Shown here: positions 39,363 through 49,546 of the stretch, piece by piece
How the letters are laid out: each line of letters begins with the position of its first letter
Numbering within the stretch: the stretch's first letter is position 1
Source of the DNA: Theristus sp. LFF4_11
Taxonomy: Eukaryota > Nematoda > Chromadorea > Monhysterida > Xyalidae
DNA: 64,000 nt
Direction: 5' to 3'
Assembly (NCBI GenBank): GCA_030248135.1
Contig: JASANC010001071.1
Span: 1-64,000, forward strand
Program-made: the position numbers and the translations under genes
Notes under the pieces: generated by a model
Told to the model about the DNA's origin: nothing
What the model saw: only the letters and a program-made list of their open reading frames with translations
Database searches by the model: none

Positions 39363-42300
39363 ATGCGTCGAAAAGCCCTCGTTCGCGTCATCATTGGAAT
39401 TGTAACTTCGCTGCCGATTGTGACGTGTGAGTGTGTGGTTTTGTGTGCGCGCTGGCTTGTGCGTTTGTTTTTGTGCCTGTGTGTTTGTCTGTGACTGTTC
39501 GTTTATTTATATCTGCTTGTGAGTTTGTTTGTGTGCCTGTGCATTTGCTTGTGAGTCGGTGCTTTTGTCTGTATGCCTTTGTGTTTGTTTTTATTGTGCT
39601 ATAATACACTTTTTAAACAAAAATTCAATGTCAGAATGGTGCTGACGCCGCAACGCGCTGATGACAACCGCAAATTGCTGATAACCGCACAGCACCATCA
39701 TATTGCGGTACCAGCACCATACTCCACAACATTTCGTTGTTCATAACGACATTTTCCTATTCAGCTTGGTCGGAGTTAGAATGTGTTACTGCGCCGCCGG
39801 TTATGGCCGGTTGGGCGAAGGCGGCTTATTATTATGGAACTTGTTTCGTGCTTTATAACACCCCTTTGACGTATTTTGACGCAGTACCGTTCTGCGAAAA
39901 TACATACCTCGCTGATAATTTTACTAGTAAGTCATAAATATCATTATTATCTATTTATATTCCTTGATTTGTTACTTCTAACGACATGGTGATTTCAGTT
40001 GTGTTTCAGGTGGCATTTTGGCAGTGCCGAAGACCCTCGAAGAAGTAAAGTTCATTGGGACTCGCCTGGTATTGAATGAACGTGACGTGACGTGACGTGA
40101 CGTGACGTGACGTGACGTGATGTGACGTGACGTGACGTGACGTGACGTGACGGTGATGCTGTTGCTGCTGCCTCATCCCTCAAGAACCAGCTATTGTACA
40201 TAGCTACAACGGCACACATGAGTTATTAAAAAACACAGTATACATTTTCAATCGCGACTACGCACATAAAAAAAAAGATTCTGACAGATCCCAGGCAGCA
40301 ACAGCAATCATCTGTCTGTATGCAGCAACACTGTAGTGAAGTACGGGCGTAGCCGTACGTCAGCGTGTTATAAGGTCTTTTGCACTCTTTACCCCTTTTC
40401 CAGGCGATTAATGGTATTGACTCTTGGGTATATTGCGTCAGAGAGCTGATTGACGGCTTTATGTGTCGATTGAGAGACTCCGGATGGACCTACAAGATCA
40501 ACATTTACATGTGGAATCCGGGACAGCCAGACAATGGAAATCCGCCTGACAATTGCGTCGTGTTGAGTGGGCTGATCAACGGCGGCCTAGACGACCGCAA
40601 CTGCGATGACGAGTACTTAGTGCTTTGCGAATATGAAGGTGAGCGTGAATACGTTTAGAGGAGTTGTTTTTGACGCGTTGCGTACCGCACTATTTTTAAA
40701 CTAATAGAAATTAGTTTTTTCAAAAGCTGCCGTGGTAAAAACAATAAATGCAGCATACAAATTTTTCTAAACGCCATCTGAGCAGAAAGTAAGGCTATTT
40801 GTAGAGAGGACGATCCAGAATTAGGGATAGATTTTTATTTGGCTAGAAATCAGACGTTAACGAATAGAACTGAAGTACACACATACAATACGTGAAGATT
40901 ACAACTTTTTATTACAATCCCATGTGACAGAAATTCCGTCTACAACAACAACAACCGCAAAAACAACAACCGCAAAAACAACAACAACAACAACAACAAC
41001 AACAACTACTACTACTACTACTACTACTACTACTACTACTACTACTACTACTACTACTACTACTACTACTACTACTACTACTACTACTACTACTACTACT
41101 ACTACTACTACTACTACTACTACTACTACTACTACTACTACTACTACTACTACTACTACTACTACTACTACTACTACTACTGCTGCTGCTGCTGCTGCTG
41201 CTGTTATCACTACTACTACTACTACAACTATTACTGCCACTACTACTACGGCTACTACTACTACTACAACTAGTAGTTTCAGCAGTGCAACAAGCAGTAA
41301 GTTTTAAAAAAACCTCTAGTATTCACTGAGTTGTGCATTTATTAAACTCACTATCAAGTAACAACAGCTTATTTCAGATTTTCCACCCGCACATTCTGCG
41401 TAGTTATTGCAGGACAAGACCAGCGAAAAATGGAAATGCAGATCAAAATGTTGGAAGCGAAAATACTCGCGATCGCGACGTCAGACACGCAACTGTTCTT
41501 GGAGCAGCTGCAGTCCGTTGTGGTAAGAAAACGTGCAGGGTGGAGGAGCATGCCCGCGCGACGGTGCGAGTGAATAGGGACCACAGTTAAACATAAAAAT
41601 TAGAGGCAATTAGCTGATTGGTTGATGATCACGTGATGCATGCGCTCCTTCGCTCCGCCCCTTCACAGCAGTAATGCCTGCACAGATGGCATGCATCAAC
41701 CAGTTAGCGGATTGCCTATAATTTAGAGTTAGACTGCGTTTTTCTGTCGCATTCCAGAACTCGTCCAATGGTGACCGATGGTTCTTGAACCGATTAACAG
41801 AACTGGCTATGCCGAAGTTCATTGCAACTGGAAACTTCAGCGAGTTGGAGCGACTGGAAATGCTGTACAGCGCTGAGCGATTCGTGATTCGCTGCAACGT
41901 CGACGAAACGAGACCGTGCAAAATGCTCGTTTATTCGTTTGTTTTCCAGACGCGTTGTTCTGTTTTGCGAACATGACGTCACAGTAAGCCTGTGAATCTG
42001 TGACAGCTGTGGTTGTTCTTCAGCACTCTACGGCCAGATAACGTTCGTGGCAGTTGTTTCAAGATCGAACCGAGAAATCTGAGCTATCGAGTAGCGCTGG
42101 CTGGTCCGAAATCAGGTGAAACTTGGCTTGGCGGCGAAAAATGACATCGCACGGTTTTCCGGAGTTTGCAAAGTGAAAACGCCATAGATGGCATTCATGA
42201 ACGTCAGCTGGCGTCTCGAAACCCCAGCCGGCGTTTGGCGTTTGCAGGATTCTGGCGCCGGTTTTCAACGTCAATCGTTCTCGAATGTTGAGTGATCGGG

Positions 42301-49546: not shown

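Follow-up and report, generated by a model that had tools for sequence, protein, structure and literature searches.

The locus at positions 39363-49546 of the window (the whole 64,000-nucleotide stretch of contig JASANC010001071.1 of Theristus sp. LFF4_11 that was analyzed) raises the question of whether a C-type lectin domain (CTLD), a Thr-rich stalk and a DEG/ENaC ectodomain are encoded by one gene, and whether the product would be a channel with its own sugar-binding head. A gene model of 16 exons on the + strand was assembled and extended by hand. GT and AG bound all 15 of its 15 introns, and the spliced model is a single open frame of 710 amino acids followed by a stop codon. The encoded order is a signal-like N-terminus, CTLD, Thr-rich stalk, DEG/ENaC ectodomain, TM2 with GLS, and tail. 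The exons are listed below.

Exon 1, 39363..39426, + strand: start codon and hydrophobic, signal-peptide-like N-terminus (MRRKALVRVIIGIVTSLPIVT); ends in phase 1; least certain exon.
Exon 2, 39765..39926, + strand: first part of the CTLD.
Exon 3, 40010..40068, + strand: middle of the CTLD.
Exon 4, 40404..40638, + strand: C-terminal half of the CTLD (WNPGQPDNG..NCV..LDDRNC..LVLCE); ends in phase 1.
Exon 5, 40931..41296, + strand: Thr-rich stalk, phase 1-1, Thr in 95 of 121 codons.
Exon 6, 41413..41522, + strand: helical-looking linker, likely the start of the channel finger; a similar exon is present in the paralog C86.
Exon 7, 41758..41936, + strand: DEG/ENaC finger region (ERFVIRCNVDETRPC).
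Exon 8, 42024..42115, + strand: DEG/ENaC ectodomain.
Exon 9, 42342..42502, + strand: DEG/ENaC ectodomain (GVRLILNDAREAVFPENQGRTLPTGY).
Exon 10, 43423..43521, + strand: DEG/ENaC ectodomain.
Exon 11, 47477..47588, + strand: DEG/ENaC cysteine-rich region (GCMNSCHQDVVLGKCGC).
Exon 12, 47784..47865, + strand: DEG/ENaC cysteine-rich region.
Exon 13, 48096..48218, + strand: DEG/ENaC ectodomain (ATYTLLKWP).
Exon 14, 48706..48781, + strand: region of the last palm strand (VHISVFYEQ).
Exon 15, 49178..49355, + strand: TM2 with GLS (FSMLIGLSLIGMLEFGMLL) and start of the tail.
Exon 16, 49512..49546, + strand: end of the tail and stop codon.

The original prediction had placed the lectin, stalk and ectodomain on consecutive exons with matched splice phases. 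The four junctions in question (40638/40931, 41296/41413, 41522/41758 and 41936/42024) all carry a GT donor and an AG acceptor, and their phases agree. The weakest part of the model is exon 1, which was placed by its GTGAGT donor, its phase and the hydrophobic character of the N-terminus, and for which an alternative in-frame ATG appears at 39339. A further hydrophobic ATG frame is present at about 38618-38740; its best donor, as judged by hand, is out of phase. Exon 5 consists mostly of an ACT microsatellite (41005-41272), whose frame survives length changes of whole units, and the exon could be removed without loss of the frame because it is of phase 1-1. Intron 10 contains a 149-bp tandem repeat of 12.7 copies (44855-46739), which is adjoined by an element of about 1 kb with inverted ends (approximately 43760-44740).

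The joined lectin and channel parts, with the stalk left out, were searched against Pfam. The channel part matches the ASC family with an E-value of 2.5e-46 over profile positions 129-453 of 455, above the cut-off. The lectin part matches Lectin_C with an E-value of 2.6e-4 and 22.1 bits, just below the cut-off of 22.6 bits. Seven open frames were also sent singly: exon 4 matches Lectin_C weakly (E = 0.0083), exon 9 matches ASC weakly (E = 0.036), and the four other exon-bearing frames gave no Pfam match. Among solved structures, the channel part aligns with ENaC beta (6wth) over about 316 residues from the finger to TM2 (E of approximately 1e-26), and the lectin part aligns with mannose-binding protein C (1rdi, E = 5e-6) and langerin (E of approximately 1e-5). 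None of 3809 candidates in a protein database matches the channel part at E ≤ 0.001, a result that is uninformative as the database may hold no animal DEG/ENaC proteins.

The genome (159 Mb in 3744 contigs) was searched for relatives of the channel part. The nearest paralogs are located on contigs C86 and C856, with best-exon identities of 46% and 51%, respectively. A CTLD-like exon appears upstream on the same strand in both, with E-values of 5e-4 for C86 and 0.27 for C856 in a 15.9-kb search. The CTLD of C856 was also recovered genome-wide by the Pfam Lectin_C profile at an E-value of 0.03, below the cut-off; that of C86 is absent from the matches listed for both genome-wide CTLD searches. 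When the heads were joined by hand and compared with Lectin_C, E-values of 8e-4 (20.5 bits) and 2.7e-4 (22.1 bits) were obtained for C86 and C856, respectively, both below the cut-off.

The C-terminal CTLD part of C856 continues in one open frame into a stalk of 436 codons, 324 of which encode Thr. Departures from A, C and A at codon positions 1, 2 and 3 of this stalk are found in 72, 64 and 235 codons, respectively; change thus clusters at third positions of the frame carried over from the CTLD, a pattern to which duplication of longer internal units could also contribute. In C86, a single exon holds a short Ser/Thr stalk together with the start of the finger; the CTLD exon before it ends in phase 1, and 108 bp later the stalk exon begins in the same phase. 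The Thr exon of the window gene (phase 1-1) sits between the equivalents of the CTLD-stalk frame of C856 and the stalk-finger exon of C86. Each junction of the fusion is therefore crossed by an open frame in one or other paralog, and the possibility that neighboring lectin and channel genes had been stitched together on paper was rejected. Positions and phases of channel introns are also held in common with the window gene, seven in C856 and at least five in C86, where the joints are less certain. This order recurs in two paralogs, and the exon phases match, so that the CTLD, stalk and DEG/ENaC ectodomain very probably constitute one gene, as had been predicted.

The same evidence bears on an arrangement with two products, in which a soluble lectin would end after exon 4, besides or instead of the fusion. 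Exon 4 reads through its donor for about six codons to a stop at 40656-40658, and an AATAAA appears at 40743, in the intron after the CTLD exon and 85 bases past that stop. A single AATAAA within 40639-41757 is, however, unremarkable. The equivalent intron of C86, at 108 bp, is too short for a gene end and a promoter, and C856 reads from the CTLD into the stalk in one frame. A channel-only product starting from exon 6 would have neither a signal nor a TM1. Two products are thus judged very unlikely. A short soluble isoform alongside the fusion is conceivable, and to that extent this estimate overlaps with those for the other readings.

For the channel parts of the three genes, pairwise values of 0.38-0.48 for pN, 0.72-0.84 for pS (saturated) and 0.53-0.60 for pN/pS were obtained, the ratios being rough because the aligner favors matches and pS is saturated. 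By these sequence comparisons the channel part is under constraint. A pseudogene or an assembly artefact resembling a fusion might be suspected from the small number of close relatives and the marginal lectin scores. Against this stand 710 model codons free of stops, pN/pS below 1 and the same arrangement on two further contigs, and such an origin is hardly credible.

A phylogenetic tree was constructed from the central ectodomain of the window gene, its two paralogs and those 12 among 36 DEG/ENaC loci whose spliced scores were at least 166; L046, which is the same gene as L001, and the other 23 loci, with lower scores, were omitted. The window gene, C86 and C856 form one clade (support of 96/93), and no further member of it emerged when the channels of C86 and C856 served as queries. 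A further gene, on C222, adjoins this clade with weaker support (83/78), on a long branch and under midpoint rooting, and is a possible sister of the three.

C222 gene, 29134-38865 (L070, L069 and L003): EGAS-like, combining a DEG/ENaC part with EGF motifs and two or three CTLD-like regions.

About 24 EGF motifs were found by regular expression upstream of the channel exons of C222, and of ten pieces searched, four match Pfam EGF above its cut-off. Lectin_C is matched in one of these ten pieces (E = 0.035, below the cut-off), and further CTLD-like exons were recognized by eye; a CTLD profile of our own gave an E-value of 4e-4 and 13.9 bits in a small search. The regular expression found no EGF motif in the flanks of the other 35 DEG/ENaC loci, and the lectin and channel parts of the window gene gave no EGF match at E ≤ 1. 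One genome thus holds a series of EGF plus CTLD, CTLD plus long stalk, and CTLD plus short stalk, which is open to experimental comparison. The EGAS proteins of C. elegans had been named as a precedent for such fusions, and the comparison is apt, as C222 carries EGF and CTLD-like exons before its DEG/ENaC part. In EGAS, as in the window gene, an extracellular-type domain is joined to a DEG/ENaC part; EGAS has EGF domains, whereas the window gene has a CTLD and a Thr-rich stalk. A CTLD-DEG/ENaC fusion was not noticed among the matches listed from the open-licence literature, which falls short of proof of novelty.

The DEG/ENaC set of this genome is large, with at least 102 exon-level ASC matches (93 of 469 candidates scored). 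In 14 control genomes the ASC search was positive in one (Thermotoga maritima) and the Lectin_C search in none. The window gene is listed in neither family scan; of the four genes, the ASC scan lists only C222 and the Lectin_C scan only C856. Among the contigs listed, the only one found by eye in both scans is C2067, in which the CTLD is 24 kb away, and this co-occurrence is uninformative. The exact SL1 spliced leader has no match in the genome; nematode affinity was read from TTAGGC arrays alone.

Whether the product is a complete channel depends on the DEG/ENaC N-terminus. A profile of this region (HG, TM1 and first palm strand) was built from seven loci of the genome and is positive at E < 0.01 in 23 of the 36 DEG/ENaC loci (7 used for building and 16 not), L001 and L046 among the 36 being one gene. 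The 13 loci with no match are short cuts around later channel parts, so that TM1 may lie outside them. As a local control, the second DEG/ENaC gene of the window, on the minus strand, is matched by the profile with an E-value of 3e-6. No match to HG, TM1 or a first palm strand (FPAVTIC-like) was obtained for the three genes, the best E-values being 0.63 on the + strand of the window at 30-50 kb, 0.37 for C86 and 0.56 for C856. The best value in C222 is 0.11, with no TM1 before the finger region. Ahead of the first head exon, the DNA searched extended to about 9 kb in the window, 3.6 kb in C86 and 1 kb in C856; given this limited reach, a distant or diverged TM1 exon may exist. A hydropathy scan found many hydrophobic segments in unspliced frames, of which none near the three genes is backed by the TM1 profile.

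The ASC match of the window gene begins at profile position 129, and the sole N-terminal hydrophobic stretch of the spliced model precedes the lectin. Similar hydrophobic starts occur in the first exon of C86 and in an exon upstream of the C856 CTLD whose membership in the C856 gene is unproven. The latter exon, with a start codon near base 998 of L067 (C856:38798), encodes a signal-like start (MAGQIRLLFVTLSIVSSSLEIVQA) and a cysteine-containing stretch; this stretch matched no Pfam family and gave no convincing match among solved structures. With one N-terminal hydrophobic stretch before the lectin and no TM1, the simplest topology would be a signal peptide, an outside ectodomain and a single TM2, and the product of the window gene is probably single-pass. 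The window gene has GxS in TM2, as do DEG/ENaC channels such as ENaC beta (6wth) and ASIC1, and aligns from finger to TM2 with ENaC beta; unlike these channels, it adds a CTLD and stalk, and the search for HG, TM1 and a first palm strand gave no match in it. With one membrane helix apparently missing, the product could act as a receptor or as a partner subunit and not as a complete channel. The view of the locus as a channel with a sugar-binding head is consequently upheld in part: the head and the channel ectodomain very probably belong to one gene, but none of the three genes gave a match to TM1, HG or a first palm strand.

A complete conducting channel would be regained if the N-terminal stretch were left uncleaved and served as a substitute TM1, with the lectin and stalk between two spans. 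The mean hydropathy of this stretch over 19 residues is 1.78, compared with 1.94 for TM2; the GxS motif of TM2 is retained as GLS in the window gene (exon 15), GCS in C86 and GMS in C856; and an inside N-terminus with an outside ectodomain is the normal DEG/ENaC topology. The hydrophobic cores, however, look short and signal-like by eye, as in the upstream C856 exon, no profile match to TM1, HG or the first palm strand was obtained, and about 275 residues would separate the N-terminal helix from the channel part. A substitute TM1 is considered unlikely.

The missing TM1, HG and first palm strand would also fit a non-conducting, single-pass lectin receptor, in which the ectodomain and TM2 serve solely as a folded and perhaps trimerizing stem. 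In the relevant passage of PMC10424705, expressed C. elegans EGAS proteins (EGAS-1 being printed as "EGAS-12") gave currents that were not significantly different from those of water-injected controls, and poor surface trafficking is named there as a possible reason. Conservation of the TM2 GxS in three paralogs argues against such a receptor, since a mere stem would not need it, and this reading is regarded as rather improbable.

The classic calcium/sugar site of C-type lectins consists of EPN or QPD, E and WND. The site residues were read by eye, those of the window gene from an alignment to mannose-binding protein C. As in conventional C-type lectins such as mannose-binding protein C and langerin, the cysteines of the C-terminal part of the CTLD and a WNxGxPxN-like motif can be aligned. 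In contrast to these proteins, which have EPN with WND, the window gene has QPD with LDD, and its CTLD is part of a channel-family membrane protein. The residues QPD, D and LDD all bear oxygen, so that calcium-dependent binding by this CTLD is possible. The corresponding residues are EPV and LRD in C86, where the site is lost, and EPD and LED in C856, where it is only partly kept. Sugar binding would therefore not be a conserved property of the family, and the sugar-binding head that had been proposed may hold for the window gene, whose QPD site is partly kept; in both paralogs the site is degraded.

Architecture, paralogy, constraint and the lack of a detectable TM1 being documented in the sequences, the best role for the product would be that of a tethering partner subunit whose head ties a DEG/ENaC complex to matrix, cuticle or a ligand, a role that we consider slightly more probable than otherwise. 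The signal peptide would be cleaved as the protein enters the secretory pathway. An extracellular CTLD would then be carried on a Thr-rich, probably O-glycosylated stalk, followed by the DEG/ENaC ectodomain, beginning with the finger, then one span (TM2 with GLS) and a short cytosolic tail. Within the family (the window gene, C86, C856 and possibly the EGAS-like C222), extracellular heads would have taken the place of the DEG/ENaC N-terminus together with TM1 and the first palm strand. The remaining ectodomain and TM2 may allow assembly with ordinary two-helix DEG/ENaC subunits as candidate partners, and the lectin head on its stalk could position or gate the complex by anchoring it to cuticle, to extracellular matrix or to a ligand. 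Findings that count against this role include Lectin_C scores just short of the cut-off for the window gene and for the heads of both paralogs, the absence of the C86 CTLD and of the window gene itself from the genome-wide listings, the calcium/sugar residues lost in C86 and only partly kept in C856, and a TM2 with GxS, for which a subunit that never touches the pore would have no need. Stated for the family as a whole, a single-pass, lectin-headed set of receptors with a DEG/ENaC ectodomain and TM2 but no TM1, a channel module that would have given up half of its membrane portion and would act as an extracellular tether or receptor either alone or by gating mixed trimers from outside, is put forward tentatively, at a little below an even chance.

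Polycystin-1, a large membrane protein, carries a CTLD in its ectodomain and acts as the partner of a channel subunit. It resembles the proposal for the window gene in both respects. It is not known to have DEG/ENaC homology, and its membrane part, described as having 11 spans, is unrelated to that of the window gene. In the usual view, mechanosensitive DEG/ENaC channels are pulled by tethers outside the cell, mostly supplied by a separate protein; in the window gene, a candidate tether head, a stalk and a channel ectodomain would be combined in a single polypeptide. That TM2 and GxS are kept while TM1 appears to be lost also bears on which portions a DEG/ENaC subunit requires to assemble and to gate.

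Other features were recorded in the window. The second DEG/ENaC gene occupies 24640-24209 on the minus strand and continues toward approximately 21779; it has TM1 and an FPPIVLCN strand and matches ASC positions 27-161 with an E-value of 3e-8, and its later exons look divergent by eye. A possible start of a short-chain dehydrogenase gene appears at 52000-52377 on the + strand (adh_short, E = 0.0018, below the cut-off). Telomere-like interstitial arrays of TTAGGC are located at 42822-42958 (about 23 copies) and 49843-51299 (about 243 copies).
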